DNA from: Paramacrobiotus metropolitanus
Lineage: Eukaryota > Tardigrada > Eutardigrada > Parachela > Macrobiotidae
Reading direction: 5' to 3'
NCBI RefSeq assembly: GCF_019649055.1
Contig: NW_026570285.1
Location: forward strand, 248,001-312,000
DNA: 64,000 bases
Positions within the stretch are counted from its first letter, which is position 1, and each line of letters starts with the position of its first letter. A model generated the notes under the pieces. It searched no databases. It had not been told where the DNA came from and saw only the letters and a program-made list of their open reading frames with translations. The position numbers were made by a program, and so were the translations under genes. Below are positions 222 through 63,698 of the stretch, piece by piece.

Positions 222-2198
222 ATGGTGCAATCAGCTAGAATTTCCTGTGCGACAACCGCTACTGTCAACTCCGCCGAGGCTGCTGCGGCCACACCAACTT
301 TTAAGTACAAATTTGGGGATGAAGGATACCTGTAAGTGACCCTTTGAGAAATCATAAGAAATTACAAGCGTATAACTGAATTACTCTCATAATTGTACAG
401 CCTGGATTATCACGGTACCAAGGTGTGTTATCCCATGTACGAAAGCCTACCGGTTGTGGAGCGCTTTCAAGCAACCGCCGACGACATCTGCATAGCCTCC
501 TTCCCAAAATCCGGTAAGCGCTTTCGACATACATCTAGAAAGCTGTCACCATATGTGCATTTAATATATCGTCAGAATGGAACATGCGGTGTTACTTACC
601 TAATGTTCATGCGGTTTCTGCTTGGCAGGGAGCCATTTCATGGGAGCGGTCGTCTGGATGATTGTCCACGACGGCGATCCTGCTTCCCTGTTGGAGGGTG
701 GCACTTTAGCATCTAAAATCCCTCGTCTGGAGTGGTCATTGCCGGGAATGCCAGCCAACATGCTGCCGGCTTACAAACTGAGCCAACAAGCGGGACAGCG
801 TGTCTTCTTGACTCATTTAGGATATGATGCGCTGCCGGAGAGTATCAAAACGCATGCCAAGGTAACGGTTCTGAGTTCTGATTAATTTATTATCTAGACA
901 TTTGAAAAGACGATCCGAAAAAATTACAATACAGTCGTACGGCGACTTGGTAAAAGCTGTGTATATTTGCTTCAGTTGCAATAAATATTTTTCTGATAAT
1001 AGCTGAGCAGTTAATTAAGGCTGGAAAAGCACGCGCTGAATATTCTGTGGTATACTGTGTAGAAATAAAGAGTCGGCTTGTGGCACACAGATTATTTTTT
1101 CGACAGATAATCTACATCGCGCGCAATGCAAAGGATGTCATCGTTTCCACGAATTATTTCTTCCGGGCGCTAAAGTTTAAACAGTTTACGGGTACAATGC
1201 AAGAGACCGCCCAGTCTTTTATGAACGACACTTGCGCCTTTGGCCCGTTTTTCGACCACGTCGCCGGATACCAACGACAAGCGTCCGATATGGCCAGCTT
1301 GTTTTTTGTCACTTACGAAGAGATGTTGCAGGTGATACCGCTGAATTAAACGATTTAATTACGGCATTATGCACAAAACTATACGCATACCGAACATTCA
1401 ATGTGAAATGTTTAGATTAATACACGATAGCCTTAATTATGCGAGTTTGATACATATTGTATATTCTTGTGCTTCTTTTATCTGGTCTTTCTGATGTTGA
1501 GTTTTTTCCAGGATGTGGAAAAGACCATTAAGGGAATTGCACGTTTCCTGGGGAAAGAACTGGATGAAGTGCAGATAGCTAACATTAAGCGATGCTGTTC
1601 GCGTGAAGAAATGAAAAACAACAAAACAACCAATTGTGAGGACCTGCACAATGCGGGTCTGATGGATTTTAAAGTGTCACCATTTATGCGAAAGGGTAAA
1701 GAAGACCTGCGAGTGCATGATGAAGTGGTGTAAGAAACTCGTAAGTAATTCCTCGTTTTAGGAATCGTTGGTGACTGGAAAAACCACTTTAGCCCGGAAC
1801 TGAATCACCAGGTGGACGAATGGATTAAGCAGGAAGGGCGTCGTGTCAAGCAAGATCTAAAGGAATTTCACTTCCAGTACCAGGATGAATCTATTGAGCA
1901 GGAAGAGCGTCGTGTTAAGCATAAGCAAGATCAAAGGAAAATCAGTTTCAGCACGACCACGTGCTCGCAGGATAAAACAGCGTGTATTAAAAATTTTTTT
2001 TTGCCCTTCAGAACCTCTTGCTTGTCCACACTCTTTGTTTCTTCGTCATACACAGGCTTACCTGCAAAGATCCAGTACATTAACCATTGTTTAAATAGTA
2101 CATTTGCAATAAACGTACAAGCCGGATTTCAAATGGGTTGCGTACACGAGCAGCGAAAAATACAAGTTTGTGGGTTACACACCAGTTACACCACATAA
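222..2198 (+). CDS. Cytosolic sulfotransferase (SULT family), tandem copy 1
   Basis: Exons read as 222-331, 401-513, 629-861, 1107-1331, 1512-1695 and 1762 to the stop. The enzyme should transfer sulfate from PAPS to a small hydroxyl or amine acceptor in the cytosol. Visible motifs are FPKSGSHF (5'-phosphosulfate loop, usually YPKSGTTW), THLGYDALP with the catalytic-type His, YIARNAKDVIVS (3'-phosphate site) and RKGIVGDWKNHF (C-terminal PAPS signature). All six exons have counterparts in the copy 5.2 kb downstream. Compared with that copy, one base is missing near 1942, so the literal frame runs past the expected stop at 1973-1975 to 2198. A polyA-type aataaa at 2108 lies inside this extension, which favours the shorter end. 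The protein would be about 359 aa with the short end, longer than the usual 290-300 aa because of a repeated charged tail. Confidence 0.85.
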
Positions 2199-5100
2199 TT
2201 TTGGCGTTTCTGGTACTTCGTATTCGGCACAGGCTCGTGCACGCCAAATGTTGATCTAGACACATTCGTTTAATTATTCCTTTTAATGTACAGGTAGTTA
2301 TTCTTGAGCGTGCCGAATATCATCATTAACTTTACAAACATCATTAGTTTCCGTCTTTCCGATGAATATTTAATGCTTTCTTCTATAAAATTTGTGTGTT
2401 TCTTCTCGTCTTTGTAACTACATTATACCTCATACTTCCTCCGTCCTCGAGCACTTCCTTGATGTGTTATTCTGGAAACATCAAAACTGACATTTTCATA
2501 GTGCAGCGGAGTATCCTGTTTTCATATGCGTTTGTCGAGTGCTTTTTGATTACGGCACAGCCACATTTTCGGTGACTTGACAGCATATTTATAAACGTAA
2601 AAGTCAGTATCGGACAAAACGGAGAATCAATAAAACATTTTTGCAAAAAAATGGCTTTTGCCGTGTAAGTGTTGTACTATGATGTTTCTCGTAATTATCG
2701 AATTTACACCTCCCTCCATAATAAGACCCCCCTCCGTAAAAAGCGCCCTTCTCATACCTAGTTGAAAATACAACTCACTCAGCGCCCAGTGAGTGTTTAC
2801 AAAATTTAATGTCGAGCGCTACAAAGTGGTGGGTACTGTACAAGTATGCGATTAAAACAAGTGCCGAAAAATGCTTTAGAATTACGTACTAGGAAAGAAC
2901 ACTCGCTTCTGACGGGCACTGCTTGAGCTTCTGACACTGCTTCTGACGAGCACTCATAAATTTATTACCTAGGTGCTGTAATAGCAGGTGCCTGTAAATT
3001 ATAATAATGACCTATGTTTCATCAATACAGCAGCAAAAATTTGTAGAATCTGTGTTAGGATTATGAAGTGTGAGCATAGCGTAAGTGCAATCCTGTAACC
3101 GGTGAAACCATCCGGACAGATTAACATTCCGTTGTTGTAGGGAAATGACACAAATTTAGAATGGGACAGTTTGCCGGCCATCCTGAAAAATATTCTGTAA
3201 AACCCGATTAGATGAAAGTTGTTTTTGTTAAAATTAAAGTGGACGTACGTCCAAATTACGTCCAAATACGGTATTTTGCTTGTCACATCGAGCAGCTGTG
3301 ACGTTTTCCGTGGCAATACTTCCAGGCTTGCATTGCAGTCTCATGGAGCGGGTGAATTGAAAAGCCCTTTAGCAATAAATACCCACGGTTACCATACATC
3401 GTGAGTATGCACGAGTGCACGACCACTAGTACTGTGCCTTTTATCCTTTTAAGTGAGGTGGCGGTGACGGACGGACGTAAACCATCGGTTACATGCAGTG
3501 TAACAGGGATGCAAAATGTCAACGTCAGACTCTCAAAGAACCATACTTTATCGCTGAAAATTCAGTACAACTTGAAATCGACGCTACAACCTTACATAAG
3601 CATAGCGTAGCATAGCATAGCATAGTTACGACCTTACATAAGTGGATTGGGTGGCGGTGACCGACGGACATTATAATTTACAGGTGCCTTGGGTATACCG
3701 CCAGCGCGCGTATGTGCATTTTAAAGTAGGAAAGCATTTGAGTGGCGGTGACCGCATATGTGCATTGAGTGGCGGTGAGTGTGACCGACCGGCACCACAT
3801 TTTTCGTAAACGCTGAACACAGAGGACCTTCACTACGCTTCGGTCGATAATGTAAGCGGTCAACTTGTCAGCACATTATCACAGTCCAATGGAATCCATT
3901 GAAACAGCGGCTAACATCTTCTAGAAATCTCCTTATTATTGCTTGATGGCACCGATAACGTGAGTCAAGATATCAAGATTCTACGGGCAGCGATTCGCCG
4001 TCTTCTGATAGAAAGTTAGAAACCTGGTATCTCAGCTTATTACGGTTAACGCATTTGCGGCTTAGAACCAGCGAAATGAATCGAAAATCAGCAACAAAGC
4101 GCAGATATAGCTAAAAAAACATCCAGAAAATTCGATAGAACACTGCGCAAGAGTACTGTAGGGCATGGCGATGTCGCTGGCTAGGCGCACATTATCTTCG
4201 ACGGCGGATTTTCGGACCACCGCGATTGCCCGTGGTCCGAAAACCAACTGACATGAACGGAGTTTGTAGCCAGCGTAACTCACAACCTAGCCGTGATAAA
4301 GCATGAAAATGCCCAGACAGGAAAAGACCTAGAAACCAACCAATGGCAGAGGTGCTGAATCATCAGATATGCGAAAGCCTGCCCTGACAGCGAACAGTTT
4401 ACAGTTACCGATTTTAGACAACGGCACCAAAAGAATTTTTAAAACAATTCAAATATACAGTGCTGATACGATCGATGGGCTGAACCACTTTTGCCAGCTG
4501 GTTTGCTCTAGTTTTTATCGAACTATAATACAAAACAAGCTTTCAGCATGGAAACCTTAAATGCAAAAGATGTCGGACAAACAGGGGTCATATGGACATT
4601 TGATACTAAGTAAGTTTTTCTGTTGTGTCGGATGATCTATGGAAATTTTTGAGAAAAACTGTTCCAACTTAACCCGGCAGGGCTGTAGATACCGCTTGTT
4701 AAAGTGCAACGGCACCGCATTAAACGCCGAACGCAGAAATGTTCCAGAAGTGAACAGACTATTAATTGGATGGATTATGGTCTGGTACAGCATTAATTTA
4801 TCTGCACAATTAAGCAGGCACTGATCCAATATGTAGTCCGAGTCCTACTGCCGATCCGAGTATACACATTTATTATCTTGGAAGCCAGTTAAATGCAATT
4901 AAATGCCGGTTGTTGACGTGTCCCAGCACCGCATCCAACGCCGTACGCAGAAACGTATGATCACATTATTAGAACCATTTGGCAAAATATTTTTTATCCA
5001 GACCACTATGTCAATAAATTAATGCGGTTTTCCAGCTACCACCACAAATGCCAGCTTGGCCAGGTGCGCGACTGGAAAGTATTCGCACTAAACTAGAAAA

Positions 5101-9727: not shown

Positions 9728-12668
9728 TTACCACGACAGCTCGCTGGTTAGCGTTAGTCGTCGAAATCGCAGCTCGCTCAACAGAGCGTGCACCGTAAAC
9801 CGCGTCAATTTCTTTACGTTCAGGCGGGATAGGAAATCGAAGTTGGTCTCTGTCGGCGCCGGAAACAAAACGTGGCTGTACTGATTGCCATCGCGAGGAT
9901 CCGGCACTTGAACTTTCATCAAAGCCTAAAAGGTTGTATTGGCACTTGGAAATACCGTACATATAGCGCACGCGTTTTCCATACAGTATACATTTGACTA
10001 AAATATTAGTAAGTTTTGAATTTCAATAGTAAGTTAAGCTTTTCGCGAACTGCAAACAGATTTCAGCCCTTTTCTACAGCGAACGTCGAGACCAAGTGAG
10101 CTGCCGTACAAAGGCACACATCTCAGGCAGTGATTGTTATATCTCTATTGAATAAATGTACAGAAGCAAACCTGCATTATGCTTCTGTATCGCGAGACGT
10201 TTTCCCGCTGAACAGTCTCCTGAATCCACGTCGCAACAGCCTTCAGATCATCGTCCGTTGGAGGAGGAAAACTGTCATCAATCAAATCCCAAAAATCGTT
10301 CAGACTCAGAGGCCGATCAGTTCCAATGTTCCCTCGGACAATCACCACTTGAAACTGTCGGCTCTTGCCCACACTCAACAAATTAACCGTCAGACTGCGG
10401 ATCACCAGTGCTTTACACACCGAGGCAAATGCCGTCAACTCCGCGTGCAGGTCGATAATAAACTCAGCGATGACACTTTCTTGAAATCGCCCGCTACAGA
10501 CATTCCACTGCTGGTTATGGATAATGACCTTTTGAGCTGGCTGGTAGCCCTTTTCCTGTATAATGCGCTGGAAGACGCCGGCATTCATGGTCGGTAGTTT
10601 GTGCTTGAAATGCACAGCATGTGGACAGTTCGTGATGGTGATGAGTTTACTCCAGCGGTGACAGATGCTGGCGGCGTTCAGGTATTCCTCTTCAGCTGCT
10701 TCTTCAACGGAGAGATATCCGTATTCTAGACTGGTTCGGTTGCTTAAGAGCGGAGACGTCAATATATCATTCCACTTGTGGCACACATTGCGGTTTCGAC
10801 ACTGTTGCGCAGTATTCAAATACTCGAAAATCTCCCTTGACAAGGCTATGGGCAGCATACAGAAACCGCTCTCCCGCGGCATCGTGTCCTCCGTTTTCAG
10901 CCGTTTCCCTCGGCCGAGATGGTCTTCGATGATCTTCCGCTTCAGCTTTCGTTTGCGGCATTTTTCTGAGCAACATGTTTGGTTCCCTTTCAGCTACGAA
11001 TGATAACACCTGATTGTTACTCCATCAACTTTTGGAACACCGAACAAGTTAGATTCAGTAGAACTGCAGAAGTAATTATCGGACTTTTACCGTTGCGGTG
11101 TAGAAATCGCCATCCTTGGCCAGTGTTGCCAAACGGCGATCGAATGGTGCATGGATGTATTTTCCCCGAACAACGGTAGTGATAATCCCGTTCGGCATTG
11201 TTATTCGTGCTAACCCGAAAGAGCACATAGCAAAGTCGCCCATCAGCAAAGTGGCGGGATATCGTTTCCACGGTTCTTCTCTTTCAAGACTAATTTCCAC
11301 TTCTGCTGCGAACTCCTCCTTTTGATCTGCATATACGAGCATTATACGATTATTATAGATTACACGAGTATTATTAAACAGTAAGTACAAAGATGCTGTT
11401 GTGAGAGTAATAGAAGCCACCAGTACGGTCGCTCGGTCGGGCATCTGTAGTAAAGGAATGGGGCAATGGTGGTTCGGTTGGGCAGTCGTGAATTATAATT
11501 CCCGTAATCCGATTTCCTTCCGGTTTTCGTCTTTACCTGATTAAGTATGTTGGTCGTACCTTGGTACAGAGTGCTTGGAATTTTTTGGTTTTTCCATTTT
11601 TATTCTGTGCACCAGTGCATGTGTCCCTCACACACTGCGACGGCGCACCCGCCCGTTTTTGGTGTGGCTTAAAAGTCTCGTAACTGTTTTTTTTAATGAC
11701 GCACTTGCACGAAAACTCAGGCACTCTGTTAAGGCCGCGTTTTGCTTATTCACGTAATGAAAAATACCAGGACGAACTCGGTTTGTGCGGAATATAATTC
11801 ATGAATGCCCAACCGAACAACCAGCACCCATTCACTTACTACCCTTTCCAACCGAGCCACCGTACAGGTAGCTGATGGCTGGTACGTTACGTATCTACGT
11901 AATACGTACACTGCACACTCTCATTCATTTTAATGAGCACATTATCTTATTGAAACATCGTATGTACACTGTACCAGTGTACAGTACATACAAATAAATC
12001 TGTTGTAATAAGAAAATGTGCTTACAGAAACCCTCGAATAGAAACCCTACAGAAACCCTACAGAATGAGCTTACAGAAACCCTCGAAAAAACCAAACCGA
12101 CGAAGTTCAGAAAAGTATTGGTATATATCATCGACACCTGATTCTGCGCGTAATATCAGTACATGTAATGTTATTCACAAATTTTCTTTTCGTGGAATTT
12201 GCATTTTATAAATTTCGATGCAAATGTTTCAACGTTAACTAACTGCACGTAACCGCCACTACTTTCAGGTTGCAATACTTCGTAAGTCGCACCTATTGAA
12301 CGCGCGTGAAGTTGGCCGGTTTGGCCTTTGGCCTGCAATAAGTTCCAATTCTGCCGAAGGTAGATGCGGTCGAACGGAATCCGGTGTATGAATGGACCGT
12401 GGCATTTACTCCCACAGTCAAAATCAATGTATATCCCTTCACCCATGCAACAGCAGCGACACGTTTGAAAGACGCTCCCGCTCAACAGTTCGCCATCAAC
12501 ATCCACAACATCCACCGTGGTGACGCTGCTACCACCGCGTCGCAGGATACAACATGTACGATGGGGCGGCGGAGGTGCACGGTCCGGACCACCGCGCGAT
12601 TTGCTGTTGGCGAGCTGCCCGGTGGGTCCGGTCCGCCGTTTGGGACCTTCAGCCAGTGGTTTTGGCAT
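9728..12668 (-). CDS. FMRP-type tandem Agenet/Tudor-like plus F-box protein, copy A
   Basis: Four exons in minus-strand order: 12668-12293, 11326-11091, 10993-10172 and 9925-9728, 543 aa, frame open throughout. Residues about 50-108 (TVDVVDVDGELLSG ... IPFDRIYLR) and 130-190 (AEVEISLE ... RYPATLLMG) resemble the two Agenet/Tudor barrels of the fragile-X protein FMRP. A Cys/Lys/Arg-rich stretch (SEKCRKRKLKRKII, ~213-226) is a possible nuclear signal. An F-box follows at about 250-290 (LPIALSREIFEYL ... VCHKWNDIL). The rest is conserved only within this family. F-box proteins normally dock substrates on SCF ubiquitin ligases through Skp1. The Agenet pair could recognise methylated lysine or an RNP partner, which is inference. 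Every splice site is conserved in copy B. Intron 1 holds a MITE that copy B lacks. Confidence 0.82.
11447..11842. mobile_element. MITE-like element in intron 1 of F-box gene A
   Basis: About 396 bp bounded by imperfect terminal inverted repeats of roughly 50 bp. The left end reads gtagtaaaggaatggg and the right end, reverse complemented, gtagtaagtgaatggg. Both continue through ttcggttgggca and gaattat. There is no coding capacity. The equivalent intron of copy B lacks it, so it inserted after the block duplication. No target-site duplication was resolved. Confidence 0.6.
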
Positions 12669-25225: not shown

Positions 25226-27851
25226 TTACCAGGACAGCTCGCTCATCAGCGTAAACCGTCGAAAACGCAGTTCACTCAGTAAAGCATACACAGTGAACCG
25301 CGTCAGTTTCTTCACATCCAGGCGGGAGAGGAAGTCGAAGTGCGTCTCGGCCAGCGCCGGAAACAAAACGTGATTGTAATGGTTGTTATCACGCGGATCC
25401 GGCATCTGTATCTTCATCAAAACCTGAAACAATGTCTTGTTATATTTAATATTATGACGCTTTCAGAGACAATTATACTGTGAGTACATTTCATCGGTTT
25501 ACGAATGGCGGAATTTTTAGATGTACGAGTAACTTTATCGGTGTGCATTCGACTGAAATGATACGAAACACAGCTATTGGAATCGGCAACTCATTTTCCT
25601 GTTGTCTTGATAAGTAATTGGTTTTACTTCAGGTTTTGCAACGCAGTCGTTGGGACCAAATGCGTATTCTCTCAAAGATGTATACTTTACTTTAATATAT
25701 ACTTAACTTTACTTTAAAGGTGTATACCTTACTTTAATAATAGCTAAAAAAAATAACTGACCTGTATTATGCGCTTGTACCGCGAGTAGTCTTCGCGTTG
25801 AATCGTCCCCTGTATCCAAGTCGCGACAGTCTCAAGATCGTCGTCCGTTGGGGCCGGAAAACTGTCATCAATCAGCCCCCAAAAATCATTCAACGACAAA
25901 GACCGATCCCTTCCGACGAACCCTTGGGCGATCACCACTTGAGACTGCTGGCTCTTATTCAAGCTTACCAAATTAATAGTTAAGTTGCGAATTACCAGGA
26001 CTTCACAAATGGATGCAAAAGCAGTTAATTCCGCATGCACGCCAAAAATAAATTCCGAGATTGGGCTTTCCTTAAATTTTCCACTGAAGACATTCCATTG
26101 CTGATTATGGAGAATGACCATTCGAGCAGGCTGATAACCTTTCTCTTGTAAAATGCGCTGAAAAACAATGGCATTGACGGTTGGTTGTTTGTGTTTGAAA
26201 TGCACCACATGCGGAGAGTTCGTGATGGTGATCAATTTACTCCAGCGGTGGCAGATGCTAGCGGCGTTCAGGTACTCCTCTTCGGCTGCTTCCTCTGCTG
26301 ACAGATATCCATACTCCAGACTGGTTCGATTGCTTAAGATAGGTAACGCCAGGATATCATTCCACTTGTTGCAAACATTGCGGATTCGGCACTGCTGCGC
26401 AGTATTCAGATATTCGAACATCTCCGTCAAAACTGATATGGTCAGCGAACCCAAACCGCTCTCCAACGGTTCCACATCATCCGATTTGCGGCGTTTGCTA
26501 GCGCCGATATGCTCATCAATTATTTTTTGTCTCAGCTTCCGTTTTCGGCATCTTGCTGAACAACTGTTCTGGTTTTTGTTTTGCTACGATAATAAACGAG
26601 ATTTTACAAACAACCCTAAGAAACATCCAGCGAGTTACAGACAATACAGTACCGTTGTCATGTGGAAATCGCCTTCCGTAGCCAGTACAGCCAAGTTTCG
26701 ATCAAAAGGTGCATGAATGTGCTTCCCACGAACAATGGTGATGATGATCCCATCTGGAAGTGCCACTCGCACCAGTCCGAAAGAGCACATCGCAAAATCG
26801 CCCATCAGCAAAGTCGCAGGATATCGTTTGAGCGTCACTTCTCTCCCTAAGCTCATTTCCGCTTCCACCGCGAACTGTTCATTGTGGTCTGCATAGGGAA
26901 TAAAGTGATTCAAAAGTTAATAAATTTTTAATTTCCAATAGAGCGATAACAATATCAAGATTCAGTTACACTTAAACAAAACAACATTTTCCACGGTACC
27001 AATAACAGAAGCGGCATTTCCTCTTTGAATAGCTAAAGAAATGTTCTGCTTTAAAAACTCATGGCTGCGAATCTCGCCTGTTTGTAATTCAACCCTCTTT
27101 CCGACTTCTTTAACCAGTTTCTTGGCTGATGAACCAAAACTACCAAAAGTTTCGAATCCAACAGCAGCGAACTCATATCGTCCTGACAGGAAGCTGTATT
27201 TTTGCACTTTTTCAGCTTCTGCCTGGTCGGCTGCCGCTCCGGCCCTTAAGCTGGTGTGATCCAGATAAGAGCGCGCGACGGTGTCCACACAGGTTACATC
27301 CCAGGCCAAACACAGCCCTCTCGTCCAGGGGAAAGTGGTGATTCCGTCTGGGTAATCGCTCTTGCTACTACACAGTATACACAGTACTACACACTGCACT
27401 TTTTATTGATACAATGAGCTGATTCAAAAAGCGCAGAACACCCGAACAAAGCAGATCACAAAAAGGCATGTTTACTAGCTTTATCTAGCCTTGAATCACT
27501 GCAGTTACCCATTGAATGCGCATATAGATGATTGGTTTTGCCTTCCGCGCACAAAAAGTTCCAATCCTGCCGTAAATAGATGCTGCCGAACGGGATCTCG
27601 CGTCGGGACCGAACTTGACAACGACCAAAATCAATGCGAAGCCCATTTTTGAATGCCGAATTAGGACTAAAACAAACTGTTCCACTTAACAGTTCGCCAT
27701 CGGTCATAACATCGACCGTCGTAACGCTGCTGCCACCGCGTCGCAGAACACAACATGGCGCAGGAGCCGCCTGGCCAAGTATCTGCTTGCGTGGCAGTGA
27801 TCGTATGGGACTCCTCCGCCGCTTCGACCCACCCAGCCATGAACACCACAT
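25226..27851 (-). CDS. FMRP-type tandem Agenet/Tudor-like plus F-box protein, copy B
   Basis: Four exons in minus-strand order: 27851-27509, 26888-26653, 26583-25762 and 25423-25226, 532 aa with no frame break. Exons 2, 3 and 4 have exactly the lengths of copy A (236, 822, 198 nt) and the same phases. Agenet-like module 1 is RRGGSSVTTVDV ... IPFGSIYLRQ. Module 2 is AVEAEMSLGRE ... KRYPATLLMG. The Cys/basic stretch reads SARCRKRKLRQKII. The F-box reads LTISVLTEMFEYLN ... VCNKWNDIL. The C-terminus ends LMSELSW as in A. Amino-acid changes are spread over the protein while frame and splice sites are kept, so both copies look functional. Intron 1 contains a transposon-derived ORF absent from copy A. 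The likely role is as an SCF substrate adaptor with an unknown ligand. Confidence 0.82.
26962..27399 (-). mobile_element. Retrotransposon-type ORF fragment in intron 1 of F-box gene B
   Basis: A 145-codon frame reads PDGITTFPWTRG, LAWDVTCVDTVA, GAAADQAEAEKVQKY and SLAIQRGNAASVIGT. This set of words recurs in transposon-derived proteins of many invertebrates. I recall it as the C-terminal part of non-LTR-type elements, and the PD...D...E.K order suggests a PD-(D/E)XK-like nuclease fold. It is in the same orientation as the host gene. It is a 5'-truncated remnant with no reverse-transcriptase motif in view. The exact element class is uncertain. Confidence 0.55.
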
Positions 27852-37200: not shown

Positions 37201-40200
37201 CCCACCTGACTGCGCCGCCACACTTAACCCATTCCGCGAAGTGTGTGCGCCCCGGTAGTTTCTTTGTGATAAAGGGCGTCTAATCGGCTTCGAATGCGCC
37301 GGTTTAGTCGGGTCTGCTTAATCTTCATTAGAAATTCCGGCTACGCCCGCAAGCTTTTGGTCCCTTTTGAAATGATGTGAAATTAGATCCGAAATTTAGA
37401 AAAACGATTTTTAAATGATTTTATTCTCTGACAGGAAAACGAAATCATTAAAAAATACTTCTAAGATTTTTGCATTTCGGACATTTTTACAATAGATTCG
37501 CATACTGGACACTAGAAGACAGTATTCTCTGCGTTGTTTCACGTTAGAAAACTTAATGATTTCTTAATATAAATTCGTATATGAGCTTGTGTAGACGCTT
37601 ACTATTACTTAATCAGTTTCGAAAAGCTTTTGTAATGCGGAACAATTCGCGAAGAATACTGTGTACCTGGTGTCCTCCGCCCGGTACGCGAATCCATATT
37701 GTCAAAATGTCCGGAATGCGAAAAATGGCGAAGTGTTAATAGTTACTGTTGTAAAAGCATCGCTCTTGTCAAAAGCTATTTTTATTGTATTTTGTTTCTG
37801 TTGATTCGGCATTTAATTTGATCGACCTGCAGTTTTTAAACTTTGCGCTTCAAACCGTTTCAAATCACTGAAGGCCGGTTAGAATTTGACATGATTTGAT
37901 TTGAAGCTAAAAATGTGAAACGTATGAAATTGTGATGTTCGCCCTACGCCACGCCAGTATGACAACCGAATTATGGATGTTATGCCGCTGAACGTGTGAC
38001 ATTTTACAGATTGCAATCACACATGGAACACTGCCAACTGCAGTCAGAACGCCAGCAGTGCCAATGATTCGTCGCGCATCTCACCCGCGGAGGAATATTA
38101 CTTGTAAGTCTTCCTGACCCGGCGCACTACTCTAATCGCTCATTTCCACTTGACTCGCGATTTCCGCTCATCCCAGTGCAGCGACAATCCATACATGACA
38201 TATGGGCGTGCAAATGATCATCGTCTTACGTTTAATGTCTTCCTCGTGTTTCTCATTAAATATGAACGACTTTTCTGCGGGCAGCGAAAATTGTTTCTTT
38301 CAAGTTTAAACGCGTTGGTTATGGGAGCTGCGTAAAAAAGCGTATTTGGTGTGTATAGCGCGTGTGTGTAGGCTCTTATCAGACGCAGCCTGTCACGCAT
38401 GATTGGCTGCGCTGCCAGACCGAGCGTTGGAATGTCAGCCATTTTGTGTGTATGAGAGCAGAGGGAGAGAGTGAAAGACTGGTGCGCTGATCGGCATTGT
38501 CGCTCGGTGTCGTAATAACATGCCCATCAATCAACGTGTCAAGACGGACTCGCGCTACCGTAACATAAACAGTTTTGCCAGCTCCTGCGATTTTACATAA
38601 CTACGCATATGGAAAATTTCGTCCAACCATCGAATAAAAAAGTTTACCGGCATCATAGACACGTTTTCAAAACGTGTTAGCCGTTGCCGTTTAAGCACTA
38701 TTTCGCCCAGAATAAATTTTTTAAACGGTGCAACATATAACATGATTTCCCGATTTCCGTAGGCTTTTCCTTTAGCTATCTCAGCCTATCTGTAATTTGT
38801 TTGATTTTGCAGTCGGCAAGTGCTGGAAATTCACAAATCCGATGGCATCCACGACCTGGGTCCGCCACGATGGCAGTTCGTCTGTGGACTGGTGGTGGTG
38901 TTCATAATGGTGTATTTTGCACTCTGGAAAGGTAACTGCAAATTTCTTTATCGACCTGTGAAATCCGTTCGCAGACAGTGGCACCTCCAATATTGTCGGT
39001 GATCAGCGAGAGCAGCTAATTTGATGGTTTAGCTCTTTGTTCGTTTGAAAATCTTTATGCTGTTATTATTCATTGGTCACGTGACCAATGAAGAGAAACT
39101 TCTTTAAATGTTTTGGTAACGGATGCACATGATCCGACGAATCGGACCATTTACAACATCAACTTATTTGCCGACAGTATCGAGTATCGAATCATCCATA
39201 AAGGCAGAATGCATGCAGCCTTCATCCATATAAATTATAGATTTCATAGTGCAGTGGCAGTCAAATATACGCCTTAGACCAATCCAAACTTGACTGTGCC
39301 AGTAGCAAATTGCTAATAACGGCGGGTTTCAGATTTTGATCAGTTAATTTTTATACTTACCAAAATCTCCTTGAATAGACATCTTTCTCTGCTTTTCCAG
39401 GACCAAAGAGTTCGGGGAAGGCCGTATGGGTGACGGCCCTATCGCCTTTTGTTGTGTTATTCATCCTGCTGATCCGCGGACTGACCCTGGATGGATCCCA
39501 CGACGGCCTCAGTACGATCCGTACTTTCTCTCTCTCTAACACAAAAAGCACAACAGCTAATACGGATGCCGTTGTCTTACAGAATATTTCCTGGAACCCG
39601 AATGGAGTCGTTTACTGGCCGGTGAGGTGTGGTCGGACGCGGCGGCCCAAGTTTTCTTCTCCCTAGGTCCCGGCTTCGGCGTGCTGATGGCGCTGGCCTC
39701 GTACAATCCCTTCCACAACAACTTCTACCGGTAATGCTCGCATACCCTTTACTCGATCGGTACTTCGATGTTTTTCGCATTTCGGACGTGTCCTGTATAT
39801 TGATTCACATACCGGACACCAGTCACGGTATTCTCCGCATTGTTTGTTCCACTTCCACATGACAACTTCTCAAAAAATTTTTGAATACACACGCGATATA
39901 CTCTGTATATTGCTCTTATACAAATCTGCACATGGGATTAATGAAAAATTAGCAAACTTTCGAATGTGGAAGCCAGATGAAGACACCCTCTCTCTGGTGT
40001 CCAGTACGCGAATCAGTATGATGTACGCGTCCGGAATGCGATACACCTCGGAGTACTCGTTCTGTATATTCGATCGATACCGATGGAATCTTCTTAATTC
40101 TACAAAAGGCACAGACGTGACACTCAATGTCATGACCTTTACCGCATCCATAAGGATCGTGTACTGGGCTCACCAACCTAATTTACCTTGTCACACTGTC

Positions 40201-42603
40201 TGTTGGGGTGTTTGTAGGGATGCCCTCTTGACGAGCTTCATCAATTTCTTCGCCAGCTTCCTCAGTGGACTGGTGGTGTTCAGTGTTCTAGGTTATTTGT
40301 CGCACGTAACCGGCAAAGAGGTTAAGGACGTCGTGTCCGATGGTACAGTACACAACATGCTTGACACGTTTCTGTATGTATCACTGACTGGTCTGTCAAA
40401 TTAGGTCCGGGATTGGTTTTCGTTGCGTATCCGTAAGTCTGTATACCGACAGTGCAGCTATTTAAAGGAGTATAATTATATGCCTTCAAGGTCATATGAT
40501 GCGTTTTCTAACAGGACCGCCATCGCAACGATGCCGGGTGCTCAGTTCTGGAGTGTTATCTTTTTTATCATGCTGGCCTCGCTGGGATTGGATAGCACGG
40601 TAAAGGTCATCAATTCGCTTTTTGCTCGGAAATACAGTGTTTACACTTTCCAGTTTGGTGGACTGGAAGCCATTTTAACGGCAATATCCGATGAATTCCC
40701 CGTACCTTTTGGCAAACATCGAAAACTTTTCTGCTTAGGAATCTGTTTGTATTGTTTCTTGGGCTCATTACCAACCACTACTTATGTACGAAAGTCTGCC
40801 TACTAATTGGAAAATTATTGAAAACTGTCCATAAAAAATTCGCTAAAAATAACAACATTTTTTGCATGTTTAGGGTGGACAGTACGTCATTACGCTATTA
40901 GGTAAGTACACCGTACAAGACGCAACAAAATACCGAACAGATGAACATTATAATATAGCATCTATTTTTGTTGTTTTTTCAGACTTTTTCGGACCGACAA
41001 TCGCAATTCTGTTCATTGTATTTGTGGAAGCAGCGGCGTTTTGCTGGTTTTATGGTAAATTTAAAAATTTTCCGCTTCGTTATGTTTTTACCTAACTGGA
41101 ATTTTTTATGCTTTCGTGCAGGTATATCGCGGATATCACATGATGTTAACCTAATGTTGGGCCACAAACCGGGATTATTTTGGATTATATGTTGGACATG
41201 TATTAGTCCTGTTTTCATATTGGTATAAATTCAATGATATTACAAACTCTAATCAGTGACGGCTAATTTGATAAATACAATGACAGAATCGATGGGGTAA
41301 TATTGTTTAACTGCAGGCAATCTTCATTTTGACCCTGACCAACTACACGCCGTTGACCCTGGGCAGCTATGTGTTCCCCGAGTGGTCGGTGGCGTTGGGA
41401 TGGGTGCTGACCTTCTCGTCCATCCTCTGCATTCCCGGCTACATTATCATCGCGTTGCTCACGAGAAAAGGGACACTTCTCAGTGTAAGTTACCTTACAT
41501 TTAATATTTATTTTAGAGGACAAAAGCAGAATGATAGGTTCTTTCTACGTAAAGTAAAATAATAATTTGTAGTACAGTGGCTGATAAGTCTGCGAATGCT
41601 GTCATTACGAAACAGCACTCTAAGGAAACGTCGGATTTAAATTTCAAATTAAATAAGGACAGAGATTTTGGTTACTTTTTCGATGTTAAAGATTTTAACG
41701 GTAAAGTAGTATGTATACCCGCGTTTGTACTTCATACCATTTTGATATATCAAAATGGTATGAAGTACAAACGCGGGTTTGTACTTCAAAAGATTTATTA
41801 GACAATAGCTATATAGCTATTGTCTAATAAATCTTTTTATTTATTTTATGATTTCATTACACAGTATTAGCACACCAAACTGCATCGAATAATTCCATTA
41901 AATTACGATACTACGAGCGATAATCAGCGAGCGAGCGCTCGTATATTAGCGAGCATAATCAGTGATATTCAAAAAAGCTCCATTCTTAATCTTATTTAAA
42001 AAGTGCAAAGTGAATATTATTATCGTCGATCACAGGATGCGGCTGGGGCGTGAAAGGAGCAACACAAACGTTTTGTATAAATAATAAAGAATTAATGACA
42101 GCAGAATTGTAAGGCAGAAAAAACTGGCGAAAATTAATAAACAGTAATTAAATTTGGTGCAAGAAAGTAATTTCTGTGCAAAGGGAGAACATTCGTATAG
42201 AAGTACTAAAGTAATCTTGTGCTTGTACACTTTTCAGCACTAAAATCCATGTAAAACTTATTTTCTAATCAAATTATAGAAACTCGCACGTAATTATTGA
42301 AATTTTTACTGTGAAGTAACGTGCCCGCGTTTGCACTTTTGAACCGGATGACTAAGTACTTCTGTTGCCAGCTGTTAAATTTTATTTGATTTGTAATACA
42401 GAAATCCGTATTATTTAAGCGTAAATAAATTGCAGAAATTTCACAAGCTGATCCGACCGGAAGAGTTCACCGCGGAGCCCAGCGAGACGGTGGCCCTGAA
42501 CAACGGCAAACACCTCGACACGGAGCACCCCCCGGTCATCACCTTCCCCACCTTCACCATGTCCCCGCCCACCACCACCACCACCAGCTCCACCTTCGAC
42601 TAG
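34240..42603 (+). CDS. SLC6 sodium-coupled monoamine transporter (dopamine/serotonin/octopamine type)
   Basis: Nineteen exons: 34240-34411, 34993-34998, 35110-35133, 35287-35397, 36246-36283, 36360-36438, 38010-38103, 38813-38931, 39401-39511, 39583-39730, 40218-40342, 40405-40432, 40515-40599, 40654-40785, 40874-40901, 40983-41054, 41122-41222, 41317-41484, 42436-42603. All phases agree, giving 602 aa. It should take up a monoamine at the plasma membrane with Na+ and Cl-. TM1 reads [20 protein letters not shown], with the Asp that marks monoamine transporters. TM3 is [15 protein letters not shown]. The glycosylated loop has LPWAHC ... WNTANC. TM6 has [18 protein letters not shown] and TM8 [20 protein letters not shown] and YVFPEW lean to the dopamine-type group, while LDSTF leans to serotonin, so the substrate is not settled. 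The N-terminus is short (about 30 aa before TM1). Confidence 0.93.
34993..34998 (+). other. 6-nt micro-exon of the SLC6 gene
   Basis: The sequence between ttgcag and gtacgt is just gaggag. Including it restores the invariant GGGAFLIPY of TM1b (KN-GGG-A). Skipping it keeps the frame but loses two glycines that every SLC6 transporter has. Confidence 0.75.
41717..41778. repeat. Perfect 62-bp palindrome in the last SLC6 intron
   Basis: 31-bp arms with no spacer, centred at 41747/41748 in gatatatc. Each arm carries cgcgtttgtacttcatacca. Confidence 0.95.
41788..41837. repeat. Perfect 50-bp palindrome in the last SLC6 intron
   Basis: 25-bp arms with no spacer (aaaagatttattagacaata...), centred at 41812/41813. 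It starts 10 bp after the first palindrome. Confidence 0.95.
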
Positions 42604-50817: not shown

Positions 50818-52359
50818 ATGTATGATAATTCCACGTCGACCACCATAACGGGTGCATCGTTACCGGGTGCCTACAACGCCTCAGCGGCCAATGGCGACCA
50901 TGCCGTCACCTGGTGGGAATACGCGCCGGGGTCCAATCAACACGCCAAAGACAGCGCTGTTCTATTATACGTCGTCTGTTATCCCATTCTGCTGACGGTG
51001 TGCACGATTGGCAATATTTTGAATTTGATTGTCCTGATCGGCTACAAGAAAAAATGCACCACCAACTGCTACATGATGGCCATGGCCATAGCGGACATTG
51101 TTTTTTCGTAAGGTTATCTTACTTGCGCAGAGTACATTCATAATTATTCTTTGCAGTTGTGGTACAATTTGTTTACGGAGTTTCTTTAACAGGTGGTCCA
51201 ATCTGCCAAAATACAATGCACTGACCAGTCAAGTTTTGCAGCGACCGTACAACGTGGCGGTCAGTCGAGCCGTGCATCCGTATGTTATCTTCGCGAAGCA
51301 CTGGAGCATGATCTATTGTGATTGGTCAGCAGCTTGTTATTTTTAATTCTCCATAATTTTAAATTTTTTTTAAAATACTGTTCAAATCCGAAATATACAG
51401 CTCGTGATTATTTTTCCAGGGTGCTGATTGCGTTTTCCCTGGAGCGTCTTCTAGCGGTCCTTATACCGCTCCGCGTCAAATGGCTTCTCCGACCACGGAC
51501 GGCCCGCATCATAATCGTGGCGCTGTTTTTCCTAGCCGTCATCTTTGCCATGGAGCGCTTCGTTCTGGAATATATCCGCTATACATACAATGACTTCCCA
51601 CCGTGGATTAAACGGTGGAACGAGATCGAGAATATCGCCGGGGTAAGGTTGCTCTTATCCCTTACCGTTGTATCAATTTAGCTACTTCATGCTGAACTTG
51701 TGTTCCAGTTGACCGTCGTCGTGGGGAACTTCTCGAGCCTCTTCATCATCGACACCATGATCATCATTGCACTGCGCCGTCACCGCTCCGCCGTCGGCCA
51801 CATTCGCACCCAGCAATCCAACCGGCAGCACAACAGCAACATGATCGTACTAACCGATGTCGCATTGTACCTCATCTTCACCTTCCCTACGTTCGTCCTC
51901 AACTGCTTGATCGAGGCGACCAACGTCAAGATGTACAGTCTGACGCCGCAATCGCGGCTGATTGCCGATCGGATTTGTGTGGTGCTGCACCAATGCGGCC
52001 ACTCCATCGGATTTTATTTATACCTTATCGTGAGCAAACAATACCGGGAATCCTTCCAGCAGATGTGTAGCCACGTCGCTTGCCTGGGATGGGCGAGAAA
52101 ACACTGGAGTGTTGCCACGGAATCGGCGGCTAGTTGGAAATATCGGATGTCGGGAAAAGTTGGGGGTGCTCGGTATTCTCATCCAGCGATAAGCCAGCAG
52201 AGCAGCGTTTCCGAAGACTTTGTCAAGCAAAAGCTAAGAGCCGGTAAAGCGTTGGTGAGAAGCCCATCGACCGACGTCTCCCTGATTGACCAGGTTCAAT
52301 GCAGCGAGATCCCGATGACCCCGGTGGCGCATGCAGCAGATGTGCAGTTCAAAGTTTAG
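50818..52359 (+). CDS. Rhodopsin-like GPCR (peptide-receptor type), copy 1
   Basis: Four exons: 50818-51107, 51193-51324, 51420-51642, 51709-52359, 431 aa, frame intact. The N-terminus carries N-x-S/T sites and a WWEYAPG motif shared with copy 2. TM1 is LLYVVCYPILLTVCTIGNIL. TM2 is CYMMAMAIADIVFS. The TM3 side contains FAKHWSMIYCDW and ends in FSLERLLAVLIPLRV (an ER-L in place of DRY). TM6 is LYLIFTFPTFVLNCL. TM7 ends GFYLYLIVSKQYRESF, replacing NPxxY, as seen in FMRFamide-receptor-like families. The C-tail is Ser-rich. The ligand cannot be named. It is the only member of the three-gene cluster without a frame break. Confidence 0.82.
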
Positions 52360-59454: not shown

Positions 59455-61115
59455 ATGGACGATGCTTTCGATCATGCCATTGAGGCTAACGCCACAATGG
59501 TCAACCTGACCAGCAGATTAACGGCCGTACTGGATACCACCGGCAACGAGACATCGCCCGACGTAGCCATATGGTTCGATCATGCGCCCCGAGCGTTTCC
59601 ACGGGGCGCTGCGCCATGTGGTCCTGTTCTACATCATCTCCTATCCACTTCTGTTGACGATGTGCACGGTGGGCAATGGGCTCAATTTATTCCTGCTGAT
59701 CCATCCGAAAACCAAGAAGAACACCACCAACTGCTACATGACCGCCATGGCCATTGCCGATATTGTTTTTTCGTAAGTACCGCACACTTGATGCCGGCAA
59801 TTCGGTTACGGGAATTAACAGCGCACGTATAATTTGCTAGGATTGCTGACTGATTGAACTTCTACTGTTTCTTGGATTTTTTTACTTGCTTTATTTTGCA
59901 GATGGCAGGCAGTTCTCAAGTACAATGCACTGGCCAGCCAAGTGTTAAAGCATCCATACGACGAATCCGCCAGTAAAACCATCTATCCGTACATGGTTTT
60001 CGCGAAGCACTGGAGCATGATTTTCTGTGATTGGTAAGATCGGTTCTCGTTTAAAAAACGCTTGGGCTGTTAAGCTAAGATCAACATAATGTCAGAACGA
60101 AAAACTTTGTAAAGTAAATCGCGTGTTAAGCTGCTGATGTCGTAGGGTCCTGGTGGCCTTTTCAGTCGAGCGTTTCCTCGCCGTCATTATACCACTGCGA
60201 GTCAAATGGCTTCTGCGACCTATAACAGCGCGCATCATAATAGTCGCGCTGGCTATCATATCCGGCGCTTTCGCCGCCGAACGCTTTACCATGGAGTATC
60301 TGCGCAACTTCTCTACGGGTTTTCCCGAGTGGATAATACGCTGGAACGAAGTGGAAAACATATCTGGGGTGAGGACCGCAAAGTCACTATAATGTTTGCT
60401 CTCTGTTTTTGCGCACCTGGCGTTTTAGCGGTATCTTATATTGCAGTTGATTGTCGTCTTCGCCAATTTTTCCATTCTGCTACTATTGGATACCCTGTTG
60501 ATAATAGCCATTAGGCGACAGGAACGCTCGGAAATCGGTCGTATGCGAGCCGGTTGTAACCGTTATCATAACAGTAACATGATCGTGCTGGCCGATGTTG
60601 GATTGTATCTATTCTCGTCGTTTCCAACGGTGATACTGAATTGTTTGATGGAGGCCGACTTCTACGGCGTTTACGACTTTGATCCAACATCGCGTTTGGT
60701 AGCCGATCGTATATGCAGCATCTTACACCAGTGTAACTATTCGCTGGATTTCTACCTGTACCTCATCGTGAGCAACAAGTACAGGAAAGACTTTGCGCGG
60801 GTGTTCGGTCCGATTTGTTGCACGCCATGGGCAAGAAAGCACTGGGATGACCTTAAAAAAAAGTTTACCAGGTGTCGTTTAGCCTGCTGTCATGGGCAGG
60901 AAGAACACGATGGACTCTCCGCGACCACCTCGCAGAGCAGCCGCAGCAGCAGCGAGTATGGCGAAACCTGGCACTCGCAGAAGCCGATAGCGGACAAACG
61001 AAGCATGTCCACTGTCATGACGACATTCGCTATTGATAGTCCTACACCGAGAAAAAATAAAGAAATCAGCAAGAAAATTATAGCATCAAAAGACCAGACA
61101 CCGAGGTATCCATGA
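59455..61115 (+). CDS. Rhodopsin-like GPCR, copy 3
   Basis: Exons: 59455-59772, 59902-60033, 60146-60368, 60447-61115. TM1 is LFYIISYPLLLTMCTVGNGL, TM2 CYMTAMAIADIVFS, the TM3 side FAKHWSMIFCDW then FSVERFLAVIIPLRV, and TM7 DFYLYLIVSNKYRKDF. The tail is long and Ser-rich. From the ATG at 59455 the glycosylated N-terminus (NATMVNLT) is in a different frame from TM1. Removing one C from the cccc run at about 59585-59588 would join them. Alternatively, translation starts at the in-frame ATG at 59582 and gives a short N-terminus. Exons 2-4 match copy 1 in length (132 and 223 nt) and are open. The aataaa at 61313 is a candidate polyA site. Confidence 0.7.
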
Positions 61116-61811: not shown

Positions 61812-63698
61812 TCATACATCGGGCGAAAAGTATTTGGCCACCTTCATCAACGACAGCAAGGCAATGCGAGACAACTTGTCCAACCGCAGACCAGCCAGAC
61901 CGTCAACGCACCATTTCTTCTCACACCAATGTGATCGCGGACGCGAATCCACGGACTGCGTTCCACACAAAACCTGCAGCGATAAGAGCTGTTGTTAATC
62001 AGAATTTAAATTACTGAGAAAAGATGTCTCACCGTGCAACAGGGCTCAATATGGTGCTCGGCTACCTGTCCGGCAAACACAGCTGCCAACCATCGCGACA
62101 AATGCTGTTGTTCCTTGTCACTGGCTACCGGCAAACCACTCTCCAGCGCATCCCACATGGCGCAGCCCAGATCGTAGTCGCTGCTCCGCTGCAATCGTTC
62201 CCTGGAGATCGTGATTTTAAGATGCGGTAGAGAGCCGCCGCGGGCTAGAGCAAGCCGCGTTGACAGATAGACAGCGGTCAGTTTCAGGTTGAATTTACAA
62301 CCGATGAGTTGGAGAGAGTGACACGGGAGCTCCCGGCATGTCGCCGTGAAATCACGGAGGCTGACATGTCCAGCTTCCCGTGCCCCTTTTTTCCACGCTT
62401 TATAAGCCGGATGCTGTTCACCGGTGTACTGGTTACCGCAGTCGGTTCTGACGCCCAGGAGGGACCCTTTAAGACCCAATAGAAAGATGGTGCTCAAGTG
62501 TATCTTTTCCCGCTGTTGCGCAATATAGTGGATCATCTGGAACACCTTCAAGAAATCATCTCCCTCCAGCAGCAACTCGCGACAGTCGACGACGATATAT
62601 CTTGTCGACACGCGCAGACACTTGAAGACTGGTGCCGTCAAAATGTAGTCGCTATACAGTTCATCCGTATCATCATCTTGCCCTCCTATGATAATGCAAG
62701 TGGTCAGCTCCGTAATAATATAGTTCCATGCTGCGCAGACTTTGCGTAGTAAAATCTGCGTCACTGTACTCAGATGCGAGAAGATCTCCAGCAACACGTT
62801 TGTTGTCAAAGCGCTAATGTCACCGTCATCCATTGTTTTATTGCCGGTTTCATCCGTAACGCTCTCCTTCATATCATGGTCTTCTGCGCTGAATGTGTAA
62901 TCAGTTCCTTCATAATCTGTCTGGAAAGCAAAACCGGCAACATATTAGGGCACAACTGACGGTATAAAGTGTCCTGCAGTCCCAGACACTTACCCAGCAT
63001 TCGTCAAAACATGGCGCATCCGCATCTAGCTCATATTCGGAAGACCGCTTCTCTAAATAGAACAGTTGCCCATCTTTCGCTTCGATGACTAGGATGGGCC
63101 GGGAATCGTTATCCCAAAGGTATCTGAGTTCATTTAGTTTCCGCACTAGTTTTTGGGCGGCTGCTGGCGAAATAGAAGCCAAACGCGTGCAACGGCGCGC
63201 TGCCCTTTACAAAAGTCCATTTGCTCACGGGAACCCTGTTCTTCGCTCCAGCAGCTCCAACCTGCGACAAATCCGAGGACCAGACGCTCCGGCGAATTCG
63301 CTCAACAGGAACAATATCCGTGCAAGCTTCTTTATTGCACCAGCGAACCACGGCGACATCGTACGCCACGTGCTGCACACCGTGTGCCAGGTTAAACACT
63401 TCAGCCGGATACCAAATCCAGGGATCGGCGGGACTGTGGCGCATGCGAACATCCACCCGGGTCGTTATCTCCGCTGCTGCAAAAATCTGCGCCAGATCTT
63501 TTCCCGTCAAAGGCGGAGAAGCGGACCGGAACACGCTATCGAAAGGGACAAGTTCGCGGCGACGGCCTTCGCAGTACAAGTCGATAAAAGTCCATTGTCA
63601 GCCACATCGACCACGCTTCCGTAGCGGTACAAACCGTCGACGCCCAAAACATCAACACTGTTCATTGGCATTTCTGAAACGGAGAGGTACCGCTCCAT
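61812..63698 (-). CDS. FMRP-type tandem Agenet/Tudor-like plus F-box protein, copy C (diverged)
   Basis: Minus-strand exons: a 5' part 63698-62994, then 62920-62033 and 61973-61812. The last two junctions (ECW|TDYEG and CCT|VLCG) are phase 0 and equal those of copies A and B. Module 1 reads SVDVLGVDGLYRYGSVVDVA ... LVPFDSVF. Module 2 reads RVDVRMRHSPADPWIWYPAE ... DIVPVERIRRS, the best match in this window to the second FMRP Agenet domain. The F-box reads ISALTTNVLLEIFSHLS ... VCAAWNYII. The C-terminus (LRLDKLSRIALLSLM) aligns with the A/B end. One base appears missing in the tttt run at about 63587 inside module 1. The join between FVKGSAPLHAF and QKLVRKLNELRY near 63150 is also out of frame, so either a small intron or another break exists there. 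Confidence 0.68.

Follow-up and report, generated by a model that had tools for sequence, protein, structure and literature searches.

The three loci A, B and C on the minus strand of the window, the whole 64,000-nt stretch of tardigrade DNA analyzed here, are probably members of a very large tardigrade gene family, in whose products an FXR-type pair of Agenet (Tudor) modules docks a shared partner, an F-box docks Skp1/Cul1, and a variable C-terminus selects the target. An F-box is a plug that connects a protein to the disposal machinery of the cell, the copy number of FXR genes is usually between one and three, and tardigrades are known for their stress tolerance. The tardigrade identity of the animal follows from CAHS, a protein that matched 20 places in the genome (best E 3.0e-69, 65% identity); a lipocalin search gave three ordinary-looking FABP-like matches. 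In this stress-tolerant animal group, the front part of an FXR gene seems to have become a module shared by what appear to be hundreds of F-box genes. The search of the genome (a 169.8-Mb assembly of 533 contigs) located C-type tandem modules at at least 251 distinct places on 55 contigs, counted as the union of the listed matches of three queries, and these look like hundreds of gene copies. Two contigs, C35 and C82, hold 55 and 43 of these places, suggesting large arrays, and a few module matches contain internal stops, indicating that some copies are broken. A-type modules gave 51 match rows at E ≤ 10, with the strong ones on the window's contig (C65) and on C74. The earlier note had named three loci and proposed a lineage expansion; the loci are real and the expansion is borne out, but its scale, far beyond three loci, had been missed.

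All three loci share the order module 1, module 2, F-box and conserved C-terminus, and the coordinates of their parts follow the numbering of the window. Locus A begins with an exon (12293–12668; open frame with a donor) that includes the ATG, a leader and Agenet module 1 (about 12354–12521), and the frame of this exon matches a 44-row C-type module profile at an E-value of 1.3e-3 and the seed profile at 1.6e-6. Agenet module 2 lies in exon 2 (11091–11326, 236 nt), the splice borders of which are common to A and B. Exon 3 (10172–10993) comprises a basic stretch (about 10895–10993), the F-box (10742–10858; Pfam F-box-like 8.6e-8 and F-box 6.5e-5, both above the cut-off) and the start of the C-terminal domain, and exon 4 (9728–9925), read from its open frame, acceptor and stop, encodes the conserved C-terminus and is equal in length to that of B. 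In locus B, Agenet module 1 is located in exon 1 (27509–27851; seed profile 5.5e-4, C-type profile only 0.02), Agenet module 2 in exon 2 (26653–26888), the basic stretch, the F-box (about 26332–26448; F-box-like 6.8e-6 and F-box 2.6e-5, both above the cut-off) and the C-terminal domain in exon 3 (25762–26583), and the conserved C-terminus with the stop in exon 4 (25226–25423). Both loci thus form open four-exon models, with exons 2, 3 and 4 of 236, 822 and 198 nt in each.

The module exon of locus C (62994–63698) carries Agenet 1 (about 63526–63662), Agenet 2 (63289–63465) and a further stretch, and matches the 44-row C-type profile in two frames (2.4e-44 and 9.2e-11). This exon shifts frame twice, at about 63600 and at about 63180. 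The same region reads as open in the neighbouring copies L004 and L023, which leaves a young pseudogene or assembly errors as explanations for C. According to the portion of the source available, the assembly of Paramacrobiotus sp. TYO was made from nanopore plus Illumina data (PMC8277472), so either an assembly error or a young pseudogene may account for the shifts. The F-box exon of C (62033–62920) contains an F-box (62708–62818; Pfam F-box 5.7e-6, above the cut-off) and the C-terminal domain, and matches a 31-row family profile of F-box exons at 2.3e-77. The last exon with the stop (61812–61973) resembles the terminal motif in L004, L013, L021, L023 and L050. The F-box family PF00646 exceeded its curated cut-off in A, B and C, and the F-box-like family PF12937 did so in A and B and remained below it in C. 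Translations and splice borders agree with the coordinates and part order that the earlier note had assigned to the three loci, and the motifs quoted there, the basic stretch preceding the F-box in A and B, and the F-box itself are all present.

Pfam detected F-box families only (E ≤ 5) in A (543 aa), B (497 aa) and the pieces of C without its last exon; KH1 and KH2 were absent from the same set, and no RGG box was read in the translations of the three loci. Profiles built from the family found no members in the window besides A, B and C. By eye, a conserved CSxxC(R/Q)KRK-like motif opens the F-box exon in A-type copies (10895–10993 in A, with counterparts in B and other A-type copies) and might serve as a nuclear signal or a small metal site. 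The window has a mean GC content of 43.3%, and a sodium:neurotransmitter symporter (SNF) exon (39688–40401), a weak, below-cut-off match to a 7TM receptor (51322–51678) and an Srw-like 7TM receptor (60429–61112), all on the plus strand, lie between its F-box genes.

Profile comparison shows the N-terminal modules to be homologues of the FXR tandem Agenet (Tudor) pair. A mixed profile of 24 diverse, hand-picked rows, none of them from FXR, was searched against 177,635 distinct PDB sequences, and the six best were all from the FXR family and were matched across the whole tandem, namely FXR1 (7.6e-8), FMRP (4e-6 for 4qvz, 4.2e-6 for 4ova, 7.3e-6 for 4qw2 and 3.2e-4 for 2bkd) and FXR2 (6.6e-6). 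The likeness to the FMRP/FXR pair proposed in the earlier note, for which a missing profile match to Agenet or Tudor domains would have been adverse, is therefore upheld. The C-type profile, for which 44 of 60 fetched copies were used after 16 with too short a profile coverage had been dropped, scored 68.2 against the genome's own FXR protein in hhalign, and 200 shuffles gave a mean of 13.2 and a maximum of 19.6. The A-type alignment, with 12 of 13 rows including A and B (L070, whose first exon shifts frame, was dropped), scored 93.9 against the C-type profile (maximum of 60 column shuffles 19.5) and weakly, 28.3, against FXR directly (shuffle maximum 18.5, probability 26%). A third type, X-type, with four rows, scored 111.8 against the C-type profile (shuffle maximum 21.6) and 35.0 against FXR (shuffle maximum 18.4). 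Module 2 of the A-type alone reached 32.8 against the C-type profile (maximum of 60 column shuffles 22.4) and 16.6 against FXR, with a probability of 1.4% and as a score without a shuffle control. AlphaFold2 returned a pLDDT of 33 for the 155-aa frame of C without an alignment, and of 31 for the F-box exons of A, B and C with a three-row alignment.

The stretch downstream of the module pair, a candidate KH0 that looked clear by eye, gave mixed values against shuffles: a local alignment of about 23 residues with the tardigrade FXR scored 19.4 (maximum of 100 shuffles 19.0), the global alignment of the region scored 10.1 (shuffle maximum 13.8), and Pfam KH_9, the KH0 of FMRP, matched none of the 44 C-type rows at E ≤ 1.

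The true FXR gene is present in the genome apart from the F-box-joined family. It is found at L003 (C5:3430500–3436500; 1753–3642, minus strand) as one open frame of 630 aa, and its protein (P0001) contains Tudor_FRX1, KH0 and two KH_1 stretches by Pfam and an RGG-rich tail by eye; as these domains share one open frame, they lie in one exon. Two further loci, L001 and L002, have a Tudor_FRX1 exon above the Pfam cut-off and a TKxTF stretch resembling the start of KH0, and were considered as a bridge from FXR to the family. This was not carried, because the downstream F-box is weak in L002 (0.0022) and is seen by eye only in L001, where the profile match sits upstream of the Tudor exon. They are possible early-branching members of the family.

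The F-box accompanies the module in most copies. In a sample of 60 C-type copies, drawn as every 2.5th of the best 150 C-module matches (the first, C of the window, being replaced by the second), an F-box lies downstream on the same strand in 57 and on the opposite strand in none. The best 150, of which the last has an E-value of 7.2e-21, were taken from 922 first-look candidates, and the F-box profile had been seeded by eight of the 60 sampled copies; without these eight, the proportion is 49/52. No F-box was found within 2 kb in L031, L035 and L047. The A-type loci behave similarly, with an F-box on the strand of the module in 10 of 11 (the exception is L065) and on the opposite strand in 0 of 11. 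All 31 downstream exons in the F-box-exon profile, retained from 39 long F-box frames after eight had been dropped, match the Pfam F-box at E ≤ 1, the first row below the cut-off.

Viewed from the F-box side, a C-type module precedes 30 of the best 150 F-box matches at a distance of up to 2500 nt, and for 117 none lies within 5 kb. Ten F-box loci picked by hand (nine of these 117 and C82:275278) include eight with a divergent tandem or part of one, and a module was found by profile in 10 of a random 18 of the other 108 matches; in the same 18, there was no module on the opposite strand and none in the reversed sequence. By extrapolation, roughly 60% of those best 150 F-box matches would share this architecture. 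Of the ten loci picked by hand, L084 has no module and reads as an ordinary F-box gene. At another of them, L087 (C82:275000–277100), a coding-like tandem repeat (LRWVACSCVGLHAVALGCMQ...) was seen by eye in the place of the module, upstream of a normal C-type F-box exon.

The function of the Agenet pair can be approached through the methyl-binding pocket. The consulted parts of two studies place F32 and Y96 in a putative methyl-binding pocket of FMRP, the pair of which is reported to bind methylated RGG proteins and has a still disputed ligand (PMC5430443), and describe weak binding of H4K20me3 peptides by the tandem Tudors of FXR1 and FXR2 via the Tud2 cage (PMC2970552). Of the 44 C-type rows, 29 have F, 13 have L and two have M at the F32 position, 40 have an aromatic residue at the Y96 position, and all have W at the W79 position. 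In the mixed set, F occupies the F32 position in 22 of the 24 rows, and the Y96 position is aromatic in 11/12 C-type rows and in L094, whereas each of the four A-type rows has I or V there and each of the seven X-type or other divergent rows has V, A, M or I; W79 is replaced by R in three of the four A-type rows. The tardigrade FXR has I at Y96 in the same alignment, which may be a misalignment. This pattern makes methyl reading by module 2 plausible for the C-type and doubtful for A and B themselves. The earlier note had suggested a reader of methylated proteins, an idea that may hold where the pocket aromatics are mostly kept, in the C-type, and that fits poorly with the A-type and X-type rows examined, from which the Y96 aromatic is gone.

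These residues bear on what the pair contributes to the ligase. It might act as a variable substrate reader, by which each copy hands its own methylated lysine or arginine target to an SCF ligase, and the pocket of the C-type rows and the reported binding of H4K20me3 by Tud2 of FXR1 and FXR2 (PMC2970552, in part) and of methylated RGG by the FMRP pair (PMC5430443, in part) are in line with such a role. However, the aromatic at Y96 is not kept in the A-type, X-type and other divergent rows of the mixed set, W79 is R in three of the four A-type rows, and Agenet 1 is among the most conserved rather than the most variable parts, with the reservation that copies found by their modules bias this comparison, so that a variable reader is rather unlikely. 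The mean pairwise identity among 26 copies is 59% for Agenet 1, 53% for the F-box, 41% for Agenet 2, 28% for the stretch that follows and 27% for the C-terminus. This gradient is biased in favor of the Agenet values, since modules served to find the copies; the difference between F-box and C-terminus suffers less from that bias.

Such a distribution of identity suggests that constant docking parts are combined, on an SCF ligase, with a receptor part that varies with the target, which corresponds to the reading favored at the outset. The front of an FXR gene may have been joined to an F-box gene, and the fusion would then have multiplied, largely in clusters. The F-box would dock the fusion protein on Skp1/Cul1, and the genome contains four matches to Skp1. 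The Agenet pair would be the docking module common to all copies, and its conserved partner may be an RNP, a protein of FXR-like kind, or a protein that is methylated or of RGG type; the fast-changing C-terminal part, perhaps together with the stretch after Agenet 2, would select the individual ubiquitination target. A bolder and quite tentative extension is that a captured FXR tandem Tudor anchors hundreds of SCF adapters at RNP granules or other FXR partners, with variable C-termini that recognize foreign or selfish proteins, as a form of intracellular surveillance; its scale would be like that of the nematode F-box families, but the anchor is different.

The assignment to FXR meets a further alternative, in which the modules would be small SH3-like barrels of a generic kind (KOW or another Royal-family type) and their resemblance to FXR would be convergent. 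The 44-row C-type profile found the trypanosome uL24m in the PDB at 1.4e-4, over a short stretch that is mostly WIWYP, ranking above FMRP (0.11), with FXR1 at 0.14 and FXR2 at 0.36 over the tandem. Single rows are evidently too divergent for Pfam, in which the best matches among the 44 C-type rows were Tudor_FRX1 at 0.053 (three rows) and Agenet at 0.075 (two rows), and the S1 domain was weakly matched in six of the 44, at best with 0.0091. The ionic lock reported for FXR1 (E6/R47 with E65/R112; PMC2970552, available section) is also altered, as the position of its arginine R47 (48 in FMRP) is mostly F or Y in the 44 rows. Against these points, uL24m falls to 0.044 with the diverse rows of the mixed profile and FXR tandems take the six best places, the two modules stand in FXR order, and the E7 position (D in 31/44) and the E66 position (E or D in 38/44) are mostly kept, which leaves convergence very improbable.

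The exon structure strongly suggests that the module exon and the F-box exon are expressed in one protein. The proposal of a fusion gains from the order of parts, the exon borders and the phases. An arrangement of two adjacent genes, duplicated jointly and transcribed apart, would fit the three of 60 sampled modules without an F-box within 2 kb and the 12 of 57 copies with more than 300 nt between the open frames (the F-box frame overlaps the module frame in 12, follows it after 1–100 nt in 17 and after 101–300 nt in 16), but it is most unlikely, since the introns of 97, 69 and 73 nt before the F-box exon of A, B and C, with GT-AG borders, leave hardly room for a gene boundary, the F-box is downstream on the same strand in 57/57 copies, and exon lengths and phases match between A and B, in which all joins are GT-AG. 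Module distances and F-box/C-terminal distances were correlated across 26 copies (r = 0.66, a value reached by none of 9999 permutations), with nearest neighbours in agreement in only 12 of the 26; joint copying of two adjacent genes would also yield congruent distances. The dN/dS of the module exon was 0.20–0.51 in 9/9 close pairs, indicating that the module is under coding constraint. The locus L060, where module and F-box share one open frame, was set aside as proof of fusion, as this frame seems to cross an intron.

If the fusion proteins are SCF adapters, the ligand of the module could be tested on hundreds of naturally occurring tandem-Tudor variants, and the family would represent a further large F-box expansion beside those of nematodes and plants, with a testable anchor domain. 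The earlier note knew of no described fusion of this kind. A combination with plant Agenet domains does exist, as a figure legend in PMC4634149 lists the F-box among the domains combined with them, while no F-box fusion with an FXR-type tandem was found in the open-licence literature, which was surveyed in part and gives weak evidence of absence. In that literature, nothing was found on Paramacrobiotus together with F-box, and matches for a tardigrade F-box expansion were, by their titles, on other subjects. The accessible parts of a 2025 study on F-box genes and transposable-element domains (PMC12062965) do not mention tardigrades, Agenet or Tudor, and those of a 2017 tardigrade genome paper (PMC5531438) do not mention F-box.

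The family shares features with several known systems. As far as their description goes, the plant Agenet and F-box proteins show a similar domain pairing, with Agenet domains of a plant clade (PMC4634149, legend). The nematode and plant F-box families (F-box/DUF38, KSL/KSS and plant FBX) are likewise large and fast-evolving sets of adapters (PMC5392922, PMC12680543, both in excerpt), but the tardigrade family differs from them in the FXR-type tandem Tudor ahead of the F-box, and Pfam DUF38 was detected neither in A, B and the F-box exon of C nor in the 31 F-box-exon rows. The same excerpts report that nematode F-box and MATH genes respond to infection (PMC5392922) and that F-box proteins have acted as antidotes in toxin-antidote pairs (PMC12680543). 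A link between SCF ligases and FXR proteins is also known from SCF-Fbxo4, which targets FXR1 according to the part of PMC5688124 consulted; there, FXR1 is a separate substrate, whereas in the tardigrade family the F-box protein itself seems to include the FXR-type module. With the FXR family proper (FMRP, FXR1 and FXR2), the tardigrade proteins have in common the two Agenet/Tudor modules, which agree in order and register, with pocket positions largely kept in the C-type. In contrast to that family, they carry an F-box in place of KH1, KH2 and RGG, appear in hundreds of copies, and in the A-type have an intron between the two modules.
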